DNA from: Solemya velum gill symbiont
GTDB taxonomy: Bacteria > Pseudomonadota > Gammaproteobacteria > Chromatiales > Chromatiaceae
DNA: 64,000 bases
NCBI RefSeq assembly: GCF_000787395.1
Contig: NZ_JRAA01000001.1
Coordinates: 434,001 to 498,000, forward strand
Reading direction: 5' to 3'
Shown here in pieces: positions 41,941-49,073 of this stretch. A model generated the notes under the pieces. The model was given only the letters and a program-made list of their open reading frames with translations. It was not told where the DNA came from and ran no database searches. The position numbers and the translations under genes were made by a program. Every line of letters begins with the position of its first letter. The stretch's first letter is position 1.

Positions 41941-42017
<77 letters not shown>

Positions 42018-42271: not shown

Positions 42272-44176
42272 ATGCCCGGTAATACATCTGCCATGCAAAA
42301 TAAACAAGACGAAACCAACTTAAATTGGGTCTCTCCTGAAGTACGTTTGCAGAGTGATCGTGACCTCGCTAACAGATCGATAACGGGTATCTTCATATAC
42401 CTGTTTGGATGGCTCCTTGTTGTCATTTCCACTGATATCGTGCCTTACAGTCCCACCCTGGTTTACGGCGCAGGAATTTTCCTGCTGGTTATCGGTTTAG
42501 GTCGGCTGATTCTGGCCATAGGTTTCGATGCAATCTACAGCAAGAATGTAGAGGTCTGGCAGCTACTCTTCGGAATCGGCATGTTCGTCTCTGCCACTAT
42601 CTATGGGCTATTCTCAGCCTGGAGTGCCTACAGGCTCGGGATGACAATAGAATTACTGATTATCGTGATTTCAATTGTCATGCTTGTTTCAGATGGCTCC
42701 ATTAGCCTGTCACCCGGAAAGCGCCTGTTCGTGCTCTTCTCTGGTTTGCTGATTCTACCCATGGTGGGTGTTTTAATCAGTTTCAGACAGACAGACAGTT
42801 ACATGATCGCTTTTATGTTGATCCTGTTTCAAATCATCCTCTCTCTTTATGCAATGAGTGTTTACAACAGTTATTGGAGAGAACTGTTCCACAAGGAATT
42901 ACTCGATCTCAAACTGATAGAGCTTGAAGCATCAAAGACAGAAACAGACAGGGCCAATGCAAGCCTGGAGGCAGCGATCAAGGAAGCAGCGATTGCCAAT
43001 TCTGCCAAGAGTCAGTTTCTTGTAAATATAAGCCATGAAATTCGCACGCCAATGAATGCCATTATCGGCATGTCACACCTGGCATTACAGACAAATCTCG
43101 ATGACATACAGTCAAATTACATCAACAAGATTCATCTGTCGGCGGAGAACTTACTTGGCGTTCTCAACGACATTCTCGATTTTTCCAAGATTGAGTCAGG
43201 CAACCTGGAAATGGAACATATCGACTTCCGCCTGGAAGACCTGATCGATAATGTGAGCAATATTCTTCGCCTCAAAAGTGAAGAGAAGGAGGTTCAGTTT
43301 GATGTCACGATTGAACAGAATATACCTACGGCACTGGTCGGCGATTCGTTGCGCCTCGGACAGGTCCTGCTGAACCTGTGTAATAACGCGGTCAATTTCA
43401 CTGGCAGTGGAGGTTCAGTCACACTGGGTGCTGAACTGGTTGATAGAGAAAGTGGCCTGGTTACGCTGCATTTTTCGGTGAAGGACACTGGAATTGGCTT
43501 AAATCCGGAGCAACAGAAAACTCTTTTTCAACCGTTTAAAAAGGCGGATACATCAAGCAATCGCGAGTATGGTGGAACTGGCCTTGGACTATCTATCTGC
43601 AAGCAACTGATTGAACTGATGGAGGGCGATATCTGGATAGAGAGCGAGTTGGATAAGGGCAGTACCTTCCATTTCACGGTGAGACTGAAGGAGCAACAGG
43701 GTGAGCCCTCACTGCGCCGTTCGGAACAGGGTATTGATAATTCCGGTCAGAATACTGCTATTGAACGACTCAAGGGAGCCAAGCTGCTGCTTGTAGAAGA
43801 CAACCTGTTTAACATGGAAATTGTAAGAGAAGTGCTGGTCAGCAATGGCCTCGTTGTGGAGGAAGCAACCAACGGCAAAGAAGCTGTTGAACTCATAAGT
43901 TCGTCTGGGGAAGATTTTGATGGCGTACTGATGGACTGCCAGATGCCTGTCATGGATGGTTACATGGCCACACGAAAAATTCGTGAAATGGACAAATACC
44001 TTGACCTGCCGATCCTTGCGTTGACTGCGAATGTGATGCAGGAGGATCGAAAAAAAGCGTTAGATGCAGGAATGAACGACCTGATTGGCAAGCCCTTTAA
44101 TATCAACGAGTTACTTTCTACCATGGCGAAATGGATAACGCCGGCCAATAGACCCGGCAAGACTCGGCCAGAGTGA
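42272..44176 (+). CDS. Membrane-bound hybrid sensor histidine kinase with receiver domain
   Basis: Two-component sensor of 634 residues. Six hydrophobic segments lie between about residues 38 and 198, with no large periplasmic loop, so it probably senses something in or near the membrane. A short coiled coil leads to HisKA with SHEIRTPMN (phosphorylated His255), then HATPase_c with the N box [15 protein letters not shown] and [12 protein letters not shown]. The C-terminal receiver has phospho-acceptor Asp555 ([11 protein letters not shown]) and a lysine in GKPF. No HPt domain follows and no response regulator is adjacent, so the phosphorelay partner lies elsewhere. A second ATG lies at codon 8. 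Confidence 0.92.
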
Positions 44177-44198
44177 GTCGATAATTCCGCAGAAACAG

Positions 44199-44228
44199 TT
44201 GATTTTCTTCAGTTGAAGGGTGTATAGT
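44199..44228 (+). promoter_or_regulatory. Candidate promoter of the rimP-nusA-infB operon
   Basis: TTGATT (44199-44204), 18 bases, TATAGT (44223-44228, five of six). A GC-rich tgcgcccc follows the -10, as at stringently controlled promoters. The transcript would have a leader of about 185 bases before rimP. Confidence 0.6.
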
Positions 44229-44229
44229 T

Positions 44230-44299
44230 GCGCCCCAATGGTGTTGGTACGGGATGTATTGCCAATTGGGCGCAGGTTAACAGCCTGCCTCGTTACCAA
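44230..44299 (+). promoter_or_regulatory. Structured 5' leader with competing hairpins
   Basis: GCGCCCCAAT (44230-44239) pairs, with one bulge, with ATTGGGCGC (44265-44273). GCAGG (44272-44276) pairs with CCTGC (44284-44288) and shares two bases with the first stem. TTGGTA (44244-44249) is complementary to TACCAA (44294-44299). These pairings are partly exclusive, so the leader could switch between folds ahead of the terminator at 44311. Confidence 0.5.
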
Positions 44300-44310
44300 A
44301 TAAGAACAAT

Positions 44311-44333
44311 AAACCCCGTTATCGGGGTTTTTT
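44311..44333 (+). terminator. First leader terminator before rimP
   Basis: AAACCCCG (44311-44318) and CGGGGTTT (44323-44330) enclose ttat and run into more T. It lies about 85 bases after the candidate promoter and about 90 bases before the rimP start, so it looks like a leader attenuator. Confidence 0.8.
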
Positions 44334-44379
44334 GTTATGCAGCGCCACACCGATCATGGATTGGTTGATGGCGAGGAAT

Positions 44380-44406
44380 ATGGGCCACTGGGCCCATTTT
44401 TTATTT
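44380..44406 (+). terminator. Second leader terminator before rimP
   Basis: ATGGGCC (44380-44386) and GGCCCAT (44391-44397) enclose actg, followed by a T-rich tail (ttttttattt). It ends only 16 bases before the proposed rimP start. If functional, it blocks most reading into rimP-nusA-infB unless antitermination occurs. Confidence 0.78.
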
Positions 44407-44421
44407 GTCCGGGATCTTGAT

Positions 44422-44901
44422 TTGAAACAGGCACCGCAAAACCTGGTTGATCTGGCACGCACCACTGCCGAAGCAATGGGCTACGAACTGGTGGGTGTGC
44501 AATTGATCAGCCGTGGAAACTACGGCAAGACGCTCAGGGTTTACATTGACCATGAGAATGGCATCACTGTGGATGATTGTGCGTCGTTAAGCCATCAGTT
44601 CAGCGGCGTGCTGGATGTTGAAGATCCGGTCAAGGGCAACTATGAGCTTGAAGTGTCGTCTCCGGGTCTTGATCGGCCACTGTTTGAGATGGCCCATTTC
44701 GAACGATTTATCGGTCAGCCGGTAAATATTCGTATGGCAGACATGATTGAGGGTCGCCGCAAGTTTGAAGGCGTCATTCAGAGTGCTGCAGAGAATGTAG
44801 TAACGATAGAAGTTGAAGATGGCAGCAAAATAGAACTGCCGTTTGATGAAATTGACATGGCACGGCTGGTTCCCGTGTTCGAAAAACAGGCGAAGAGATA
44901 A
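44422..44901 (+). CDS. rimP: Ribosome maturation factor RimP
   Basis: Needed for 30S subunit maturation. The sequence LARTTAEAMGYELVGVQLISRGNYGKTLRVYIDHENGITVDDCASLSHQFSGVLDVEDPVKGNYELEVSSPGLDRPLF is diagnostic. The frame is open 30 codons upstream, but that part lies across an intrinsic terminator, so the TTG at 44422 was chosen; it has ggga seven bases upstream and gives 159 residues, close to family length. nusA follows after 24 bases. Confidence 0.92.
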   Translation: MKQAPQNLVDLARTTAEAMGYELVGVQLISRGNYGKTLRVYIDHENGITVDDCASLSHQFSGVLDVEDPVKGNYELEVSSPGLDRPLFEMAHFERFIGQPVNIRMADMIEGRRKFEGVIQSAAENVVTIEVEDGSKIELPFDEIDMARLVPVFEKQAKR

Positions 44902-44925: not shown

Positions 44926-46437
44926 ATGAGCAAAGAAATTTTACTTGTTGTTGATGCTGTCTCGAATGAGAAAGATGTCGAGCGTGATGTAATTTTTAGT
45001 GCGATCGAAACGGCATTGGCCACCGCCACGCGAAAAAAGCATGGTGGCGAGATAGATGCACGTGTCGATGTCGATCGTGAGGATGGCAGTTACAGGACCT
45101 ATCGTCGCTGGGAAGTGGTCGATCCACAGGAAGACGGCAGCCTTGAATTCCCGATTCGTCAAATTACCCGCGATGCAGCCGAGGCGCTGGCAGAGCAGGG
45201 CGAGGAAGTAACGGATTTCATCGAGGAAGAGATCGAATCAGTCGAGTTCGGTCGAATTGCTGCACAGATTGCCAAGCAGGTCATCAAGCAGGTACTGCGT
45301 GACGCAGAACGCAACAAGGTCATGGAAGCGTACAAGGATCGTGTCGGTGAGCTTGTTTCCGGCGTGGTCAAACGCCTCAGCAAGGGTGCCGTGATCATGG
45401 ACCTGGGCGGCAATGCAGAAGCTGAAATTCCGAAGAACGAACTGGTTCCTCGTGAATCTGTACGTATCGGTGATCGCCTGCGTGGTTTTCTCTACGAGAT
45501 TGACCCCGAGAATCGCGGCCCACAGCTGATGGTAACGCGCACACGTCCAGAGTTCCTGATTGAACTCTTCCGGCTTGAAGTGCCTGAAATCGGCGAAGGC
45601 CTGATTGAGCTGCTTGGAGCAGCACGCGATCCTGGTTCACGTGCAAAAATCGCGGTACATACACGTGATGCACGTATCGACCCGGTCGGTGCCTGCGTCG
45701 GCATGCGTGGTTCCCGCGTACAGGCGGTATCTAATGAGCTGTCAGGAGAACGTGTCGATATTATTTTATGGAACGAGAATGCAGCACAGTTCGTCATCAA
45801 CGCGATGGCGCCTGCTGACGTTGTTTCAATTGTTGTAGACGAAGATGCACACAGCATGGATGTTGCCGTCAAGGAAGATAACCTGTCACAGGCAATCGGC
45901 CGTGGCGGGCAGAATGTCCGTCTTGCCAGCCAGCTGACAGGCTGGGAGCTCAATGTTATGGGCGAGGAAGACGCTGCACGCAAGAGCGATGAAGAGGCGT
46001 CCAAGTATGTTGAACGTTTCATGTCGGAACTCGATGTGGACGAAGAGGTTGCCACCATCCTTGTACAGGAAGGTTTCACCTCGCTCGACGAGATCGCCTA
46101 CGTGCCTCTTGAAGAGATGCTCCAGATCGAAGAGTTTGACGAGGACATCGTCAATGAGCTGCGCGATCGTGCAAACGACATGCTGTTGACGCGAGCTATT
46201 GCTAAAGAAGAGATACTCGAGCAGCCACCTGCTGAAGATCTTCTCGGCATGGAAGGTATGGACGAGCAGACTGCCAACAAGCTGGCTGCAAAAGGAATAA
46301 TAACCATGGAAGACCTTGCGGAGCAGGGTGTCGATGATCTTCTCGAGATCGAGGGGATCGACCAGGAGCGTGCAGGAGAATTGATCATGACGGCTCGCGC
46401 ACCATGGTTTGAAGAAGCAGAAGAGACTAACGAATAA
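44926..46437 (+). CDS. nusA: Transcription termination/antitermination protein NusA
   Basis: RNA polymerase-bound regulator of pausing, termination and antitermination. Domains in order: N-terminal polymerase-binding (residues 1-130), S1 (about 135-200, [29 protein letters not shown]), two KH domains (about 205-345, with [27 protein letters not shown] and [20 protein letters not shown]), and two acidic helix-hairpin-helix repeats at the C-terminus as in gammaproteobacteria. Length 503. It could act on the two terminators in its own operon leader. Confidence 0.97.
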
Positions 46438-46448
46438 GGGGTGTGGCA

Positions 46449-49073
46449 ATGAGTGAAGTTACAGTAGCGCAGTTAGCTGCGGATGTCGGCATTCCGGTTG
46501 ATCGTCTGCTCACCCAGCTTGGTGAAGCAGGGATCAAAAAATCCAGTGATGCAGATATCATCACCGAAGATGAAAAACGCGATCTGCTCACTTTCCTGCG
46601 CCAGGCGCACGGCAAGAAGAGCACTGCCACGCAGACTACTTCTGCACCGGCAGAACGCAAACTGACTCTCAAGCGAAAAACTGTCAGTGAATTGAAGCAG
46701 CCTGCTGCAACGCGCAGCGTGGCATCACGTGGCACACCGTCTTCCGGTAAAACTGTCAGTGTCGAGGTGCGCCGCAAGCGTGCCGTGATCAAGACTGCAG
46801 AAAGTGCCGAAGAGAAGAGTGCACTGCTCAAGGAAGCTGAAGAGGCACGCAAGGCGCTTGCCGAACAGGAAGCTGAGAGAAAGGCGCAGGCTGAACAGGA
46901 AGAGGCGCGTCGTGCTGCTGCTGATGAGCTGCGCAAGCAGGAAGAGGATAACCGTCGCAGCAAGGAAGAGAAGCTGCGTGCACGTGAAGAGGAAGAGCGT
47001 CAGCGCGAAGTGGCAGAGCGTTTCAAGAAAGAAGAGGAAGAGCGCGAGCGCCTCGAGGAAGAGAAACGCAAACTCGCCGAAGCTGAGTCTGCCAAGAAAG
47101 CTGTTGCCAAGGCCAAGGCCAACAAGGCTGCAGCCGAGGAAGCACGTAAAAAACGTACGTCTGACAAGGGCGGACGCAAGGAGCTGCATGTTGCTGCAAA
47201 TGCACCACGCGGTAGACGCAAGAAAAAAGACCGTTCTCGTGCCGCACAGCGCGACCAGAACATTAATGTACCAGGCAGTGGTGAGCATGGATTCCAGATG
47301 CCGACCGAACCGGTTGTGCATGACGTGGAAGTGCCAGATACCATCTCCCTTGGCGATCTTGCCCAGCGTATGTCAGTCAAGGCACCTGAGGTCATCAAGA
47401 CCCTGATGAATATGGGCATGATGGTTACCATCAACGAAGTTCTCGACCAGGATACTGCTGCACTTGTCGTCGAGGAGATGGGGCACAATGTCGTCTTCAA
47501 GAAAGCTGACGACGAAGAACAGGATATTCTGACTGCAGTCGATATCGAGATTGAAGGTGAGACTCAGCCACGTGCACCGGTTGTTACCATCATGGGTCAT
47601 GTTGACCACGGTAAGACATCGCTGCTCGATTACATCCGTACCTCACGTGTAGCAGCAGGCGAGGCGGGTGGTATTACCCAGCATATCGGTGCTTACAGTG
47701 TCGATACAGACCATGGGAAAATCACATTCCTCGATACCCCGGGACACGCCGCTTTCTCTGCAATGCGTGCTCGTGGTGCCAAGGTGACTGATATTGTCAT
47801 CATCGTCGTGGCAGCAGATGACGGTGTGATGCCGCAGACAAAAGAGGCAATCCAGCACGCACGTGCGGGTGATGTACCGATTATCATTGCCATCAACAAG
47901 ATGGACAAGCCGGAAGCGAACCCGGACCGCGTTATGCAGGAACTGGTTGCCGAAGAGGTGGTTCCGGAAGATTGGGGTGGTGATACCCAGTTCATCAAGG
48001 TCTCCGCACACTCTGGTGAAGGCGTTAACGAACTGCTTGAGTCCATCCTGCTGCAATCCGAGGTTCTGGAACTGAAAGCTGTTGCTGAAGGTCCGGCTCG
48101 CGGTGCAATTATCGAATCCAGTCTCGACAAGGGACGTGGTGCCGTAGCAACTGTTCTTGTTCAGAACGGTACCCTGCGTAAAGGCGATCCGATCGTCTGT
48201 GGAACCGAGTTTGGACGTGTACGTGCCATGTTCGACGAGAGTGGTGCAGAGGTAGACAGCGCCGGTCCATCAGTGCCTGTTGCTGTACTCGGCCTCTCAG
48301 GTGCACCGAATGCGGGTGACGATGCTGTTGCCATGCCTGACGAGCGCCGTGCACGTGAACTGGCTGAAGTCCGTCACCAGAAGGTGCGTGACTCACGCCT
48401 TGCAGAACAGAAGGCGGCCAAGCTCAACGAGCTCTTCTCTCAGATGGGTGATGGCGAAGTGCTACAGGTCAACCTTGTGGTTAAGGCTGACGTTCAGGGT
48501 AGTGTTGAGGCACTCAAGGATTCACTCGAGAATATCTCCACTGACGAAATCAGGGTCAAGGTCGTTGCATCCGGTGTCGGTGGTATCAACGAATCCGATG
48601 CCAACCTTGCCGCTGCATCCAGCGCCATCGTCGTCGGCTTCAATGTTCGTGCGGACTCAACTGCTCGACGTATTCTTGAAGAACGCGGTCTTGAACTGCG
48701 TTACTACAGCATCATCTATGAAGTCATCGATGATGTGAAAAAAGCTGCCAGCGGTATGCTCTCTCCGGAAATCCGCGAGTCCATCATCGGTCTTGCCGAG
48801 GTTCGCGATGTATTCCGTTCATCACGCCTTGGCGCGATTGCAGGCTGCATGGTCGTTGACGGAGTCGTCAAGCGTAACAACCCGATTCGTGTTCTGCGTG
48901 ATAACGTGGTTGTTTTCGAAGGCGAACTCGAATCACTGCGCCGCTTCAAGGACGACGTTCAGGAAGTCAAGTCCGGCACCGAATGTGGTATCGGAGTGAA
49001 GAGCTACAACGACGTAAAGGCTGGTGACCAGATCGAGTGTTTTGAACGCACCGAAGTTGCAAGGGAGCTCTAA
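46449..49073 (+). CDS. infB: Translation initiation factor IF-2
   Basis: GTPase that brings initiator tRNA to the 30S subunit. The N-terminal IF2-N domain ([23 protein letters not shown]) is followed by a long charged Lys/Glu/Arg/Ala stretch (about residues 110-260), then a second IF2-N-like part and the G domain: [12 protein letters not shown] (G1), DTPGHAAF (G3) and NKMDKPEAN (G4). The ATG at 46449 has aagggg at proper distance; the in-frame GTG at 46443 lies too close to it. Length 874. Confidence 0.97.

Follow-up and report, generated by a model that had tools for sequence, protein, structure and literature searches.

The tandem-terminator leader of the rimP-nusA-infB operon in the Solemya velum gill symbiont

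Described rimP leaders and the locus of the symbiont

The genes for RimP, NusA and IF2 are preceded in many bacteria by a leader element whose mechanism is still largely a proposal. In the description by Naville and Gautheret (2010), a GGGc...gCCC hairpin stands next to rimP, and several Gammaproteobacteria add a CCCg...cGGG terminator upstream of it (PMC2965389). The authors propose that the leader acts by attenuation with NusA as the effector, and they see in the tandem arrangement a clear candidate for an antiterminator. For Escherichia coli, another study describes two terminators, t1 and t2, before rimP, with transcripts becoming more abundant once NusA-dependent termination is weakened (PMC6511841). 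In an E. coli 3'-end mapping paper, the single passage on rimP concerns Rho (PMC7815308), and a further report mentions that the rimP leader gives rise to a small RNA associated with ProQ (PMC5391140). In Bacillus subtilis, according to a review, NusA regulates its own expression by stimulating termination within its leader (PMC12288461).

The leader analysed here lies in a stretch of 64,000 nucleotides, hereafter the window, which covers positions 434001-498000 of contig C1 (1,213,831 bases) in the genome of the Solemya velum gill symbiont (G000; 2,702,377 bases in 10 contigs). The features are collected in Table 1. The genes follow the order htpG (Hsp90 family), tRNA-Met, a terminator-like repeat recognized by eye, a gene for a hybrid histidine kinase (Pfam HisKA, HATPase_c and Response_reg) and the rimP leader. 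Among the named relatives found, the Solemya elarraichensis gill symbiont (L031; genome G001) is the closest, its NusA being 98% identical; it is referred to below as the sister symbiont.

Table 1. Features in and around the rimP leader of the window
Feature	Position	Strand	Description and basis
tRNA-Met (CAT), intact, initiator type	41941..42017	+	ARAGORN; comparison with relatives; "initiator" follows the annotation of E. coli metY
Candidate promoter TTGATT-18-TATAGT	44199..44228	+	9 of 12 matches; RNA start expected near 44235
5' leader fold, long stem with inner hairpin	44244..44299	+	Minimum-energy fold
Probable decayed 3' fragment of an initiator tRNA gene	44268..44299	+	25 of 33 columns match the 3' end of tRNA-Met
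Terminator T1	44311..44333	+	CCCCG...CGGGG stem 44311-44330, T-run to 44333; RF01770 alignment
Hairpin between T1 and T2	44343..44373	+	Folds at -15.3 kcal/mol
Terminator T2	44380..44406	+	TGGGCC-loop-GGCCCA stem 44380-44397, T6 A TTT tail to 44406
rimP	44422..44901	+	TTG start; Pfam RimP_N and DUF150_C; start column common to relatives
nusA	44926..46437	+	Pfam NusA_N, KH_5 and S1
infB	46443..49073	+	Pfam IF-2 and IF2_N

The leader of the window is a well-conserved member of this known element, and its mechanism has already been proposed in print. It shares with the rimP leader family RF01770 the position directly upstream of rimP in rimP-nusA-infB, the GGGC...GCCC hairpin with a T-run next to rimP, and the tandem CCCG...CGGG terminator upstream. 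Unlike the described form, it scores below the cut-off of the family and no antiterminator was found in it. Over its full length, RF01770 aligns with 44284-44402 at 35.8 bits, short of the cut-off of 47; of the 26 matches in the genome this one scores highest, followed by one of 26.8 bits. At E <=0.05, 20 of 55 related genomes give a match, just before rimP in 14 of them and only elsewhere in 6. The cut-off is reached in none of the 55, which indicates that the model fits this branch poorly. Weak matches mean little, since 12 of 14 control genomes also hold some at E <=10 (4 of 14 at E <=0.05). Other Rfam matches in the leader (E 0.39 or worse) were taken as chance.

The metY-rimP leader of E. 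coli K-12 (L077), with its t1 and t2 (PMC6511841), has in common with the window the succession of T1, TTTTTTGTTAT, T2 and a TTG start codon of rimP, as its sequence shows. The two differ in that metY lies 206 bases upstream of rimP in E. coli, whereas the tRNA gene of the window is 2.2 kb away with the kinase gene in between, and in that the E. coli T2 has a shorter stem, GGGC...GCCC, with a UUUAG-type loop. The likeness to the B. subtilis attenuator, drawn from its published description, consists of intrinsic termination in the leader of an operon encoding NusA; for B. subtilis a response to NusA is reported, and for the window one is predicted.

Folding of the leader and its proposed role in attenuation

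T1 and T2 are real terminators of a described element, the gammaproteobacterial rimP leader, and termination at both is predicted for the symbiont. As the first-pass annotation had stated, two well-formed terminators stand at 44311-44333 and 44380-44406; they are conserved, and the stem of each folds at -11.8 kcal/mol. A simple scan of 2 kb returned 3 terminator-like sites against 1.9 expected, so that the scan alone proves no terminator and it is conservation across relatives that does. None of 200 shuffles folds as well as the whole leader (44235-44424; z -3.83), and the segment 44235-44333 surpasses 198 of 200. Between the window and the sister symbiont, 231 of 245 positions are identical over 44177-44421, against 136 of 159 third codon positions of rimP (Fisher p 0.004), and the block 44380-44408 containing T2 is unchanged (29 of 29). 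The leader, being better kept than these codon positions, is probably under constraint.

The preferred reading, to which a probability of roughly 0.6 is assigned, is that the rimP leader attenuates transcription with no recognizable RNA sensor of its own, NusA most likely setting the degree of read-through. Transcription would begin near 44235 and meet first T1 and then T2, both of which would fold by default, and only polymerases reading through the two would yield the rimP-nusA-infB mRNA. The production of RimP, NusA and IF2 would thus probably depend on RNA polymerase running past T1 and T2. How often termination occurs would be set by a factor, most likely NusA, so that abundant NusA would lead to less NusA being made. 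NusA is the obvious candidate, because the operon encodes it and because of what is reported for E. coli and B. subtilis (PMC6511841, PMC12288461); its role as effector is suggested by this analogy, and the position of the RNA start is putative. Counted against the attenuator are a candidate promoter at chance level, the 18 of 85 upstream regions without T2 (see below) and the RF01770 score under the cut-off. A strong intrinsic hairpin, moreover, may need no factor.

Feedback attenuation by NusA had been suggested for this locus together with several partly exclusive pairings in the leader. The feedback fits the anatomy of the leader and the proposal published for this element (PMC2965389), but the competing pairings found no support. 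The 5' part without the 3' arm of T1 (44235-44318) is equalled in folding by 40 of 200 shuffles (z -0.84), and its longest inverted repeat (44230-44241 with 44262-44273) begins ahead of the probable RNA start and is disrupted in the sister species. When T1 or T2 is forbidden in the folding of the window leader, the cost is 12.3 and 13.3 kcal/mol, respectively, and the freed arms gain essentially no partner. Pairing of the arms with upstream RNA is likewise not above that of shuffles, neither in the window (T1 0.06, shuffles 0.38; T2 0.38, shuffles 0.65) nor across relatives (T1 0.41 against 0.46 in 55 loci; T2 0.60 against 0.70 in 68 loci; E. coli included in both).

By these two approaches, forbidden-hairpin folding and arm pairing, no antiterminator was found in the leader of the window. 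An RNA switch, in which pairings of the 5' leader compete with T1 or T2 until a signal flips the fold, was therefore rejected for it, and is considered very improbable as an explanation of the element, even with the potential antiterminator that Naville and Gautheret report for tandem leaders (PMC2965389). The antiterminator to T1 lies outside the consensus structure of RF01770. The exception in the arm test is the 5' arm of the E. coli T2, whose upstream pairing (0.95 against 0.67) exceeds that of 30 of 30 shuffles, and given this case the form of the leader in other species may differ. Since removing T1 or T2 is costly and leaves no rival partner, control, if any, would be exerted through the polymerase or a factor. 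That an antiterminator is not seen in this branch is one of two usable facts from this comparison, and points to a protein effector; the other is the tie between the sequence of T2 and rimP.

Conservation of T2 and the start of rimP

The strict pattern TGGGCC-N(2-5)-GGCCCA-N-TTTTT was searched in 55 related genomes, that of the symbiont included. It occurs in 24 of them, exactly once in each and in all 24 just before the start of rimP, while its reversed form, used as a control, gave no match in the 55 genomes. The placement follows from coordinates for 23 of the 24; the remaining match, on a separate contig of G017 (C235, L098), precedes a frame beginning like the rimP of Ectothiorhodospira (cf. 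L042). In raw counts that ignore kinship, as do all counts over relatives given here, a looser form of T2 is present in 67 of 85 rimP upstream regions and absent, in the form searched, from 18. Three short regions (178, 259 and 232 nt upstream) are among the 85, from which L002 (same locus as L031), L099 and L100 (5' end of rimP outside the stretch) and L054, L059 and L067 (no rimP match) had been dropped.

The looser search demanded GGG, CCC and four T, whose presence is consequently uninformative, and allowed hairpins of 10 to 16 nt. Among the 67 loci the hairpin is nevertheless always 13 nt (58 loci) or 14 nt (9 loci) long. A T precedes GGGC in 65 and an A follows GCCC in 56. The position after the four required T is again T in 65, a purine (G or A) comes directly after the T-run in 62, the next base is T in 66, and the further RTTT holds too. 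From the 3' arm of T2 to the start of rimP the median distance is 27 nt. Judged from these sequences, T2 is a dedicated, sequence-conserved part of the leader tied to rimP, and this tie is worth carrying on with, as is the evolutionary connection of T1 to the initiator tRNA.

The closeness of T2 to the start codon in most loci would also suit an action mainly at the RNA level, be it on the start of rimP translation, on RNA decay or in the form of a stable leader RNA, and the ProQ-associated small RNA mentioned in PMC5391140 could be seen in the same light. The T-run, however, belongs to the conserved block, and a released leader RNA is equally expected from termination, which leaves this reading with little probability.

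A second start of rimP in the draft genome G017 (contig C235, L098), preceded by a leader of the Ectothiorhodospira type, is probably a contamination.

The TTG start codon of rimP at 44422 lies downstream of T2, in agreement with the first-pass annotation, and its column holds ATG, GTG or TTG in 51 of 64 loci of relatives. Because only 15 bases separate the T2 tail from this codon, the rimP mRNA almost certainly crosses T2. A promoter downstream of T2 was rejected for want of room in these 15 bases, and transcription from a promoter after 44406, the case named in advance as speaking against attenuation, is practically excluded. Earlier in-frame starts (ATG at 44356, 44368 and 44380) are disfavoured by the start codons found at the 44422 column. 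ATG 44380 has a better Shine-Dalgarno-like pairing than TTG 44422 (-5.8 against -4.1 kcal/mol), but sits inside T2, and its GAGGA is GAGTA in the sister species. The TTG is hence preferred, and the earlier starts are less probable. Of the promoter that had been annotated upstream, the site itself is well kept in the sister symbiont (27 of 30 identical, both hexamers intact), while the quality of its match is at the level of shuffles, where 1.9 such sites are expected and 2 were found.

T1 and the initiator tRNA gene

A T1-type terminator lies at most 200 nt before T2 in 50 of the 67 T2 loci, compared with 43 of the 1340 regions obtained by shuffling. Many relatives have the initiator tRNA gene directly before T1, which then takes the position of the terminator of that gene. 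T1 is kept in 33 of 41 T2 loci without the tRNA gene and in 17 of 26 with it, a difference that is not significant (p 0.25), the tRNA being judged within a stretch of about 400-450 nt that is shorter at contig ends; T1 is therefore not simply a tRNA terminator lost along with its tRNA. The window is a local case of this kind, where the tandem form persists though the initiator tRNA gene has left its side.

Promoter-like sites between the two terminators were scanned in the 46 of 67 loci retained by a stricter rule for T1. They appear in 11 of the 46, with about 7% expected from shuffles, and all 11 fall among the 25 gaps of at least 70 nt (none in 21 shorter gaps), which is partly a matter of room. 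The window has a gap of 51, and the same rule finds no promoter there. With this gap, and with the tRNA gene so far upstream, both terminators probably act on one transcript.

The association with the tRNA gene, and the internal promoter-like sites that suit T1 as a tRNA terminator in those loci, favour a plainer function, in which T1 and T2 would merely end transcripts coming from upstream (formerly from the tRNA, now from the kinase gene) and rimP would live on constant read-through. A pure end signal, however, needs no fixed sequence exclusive to rimP, nor a site so near the start codon (median 27 nt) that the transcript of rimP itself crosses it. Such insulation is accordingly considered unlikely, though less so than the alternatives discussed above, and attenuation is preferred.

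Within the attenuator reading, a further suggestion is offered tentatively and with less than even confidence. T2, with its hairpin of 13-14 nt and T6-R-TTT tail found at rimP only, might, instead of being a generic terminator, be a sequence that NusA (or RimP) recognizes directly in a paused complex, by which cells would measure their own termination factor. T1 would then be inherited from the initiator tRNA, whose terminator stayed on as a second gate when the tRNA gene was parted from the operon by integrative elements.

The interval between the tRNA and rimP is unstable, as seen by eye in the comparison of the window with the sister locus (L031). The 5' part of the histidine kinase gene (window 42272-44176) is missing there, and other DNA follows a tRNA fragment, also by eye. 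Integrative elements that enter a tRNA gene usually leave behind an integrase gene together with a duplicate 3' tRNA fragment. Both are found in the sister genome G001, which by its sequence carries the traces of such an element in the initiator tRNA gene. On C327:7903-8873 (L101, L103) a phage-type integrase gene, truncated at the end of the contig (PF00589, 2.3e-12, profile positions 2-72 of 172), comes after an intact initiator tRNA, and on C328:5723-5767 (L102) the rimP leader is preceded by a 3' tRNA fragment that is identical over its 45 bases.

The same tRNA site is free of the G001 element in the window, where the segment 44268-44299 appears, with moderate confidence, to be a decayed 3' tRNA fragment. 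Its alignment to the tRNA 3' end is the best of 1553 tiles, and 3 of 5000 shuffles did as well, one of them reaching 34 against 24. BLAST with tRNA-Met did not report it, and for the copy of the sister taken alone 14-15 of 300 shuffles were as good. The fragment could be an older remnant, left by an integrative element or by a duplication. Other lineages, too, have 3' pieces of the initiator tRNA before rimP, clearly so in L032, L038 and G044 (L083) and weakly in L058; the initiator tRNA gene may be a recurrent insertion site adjoining the operon.

In five loci without the tRNA gene (L007, L013, L021, L022 and L027), a GCTTAA(GGA)-like word was noticed by eye shortly after a promoter-like TATA box and before T1, and is possibly a further element of the leader.
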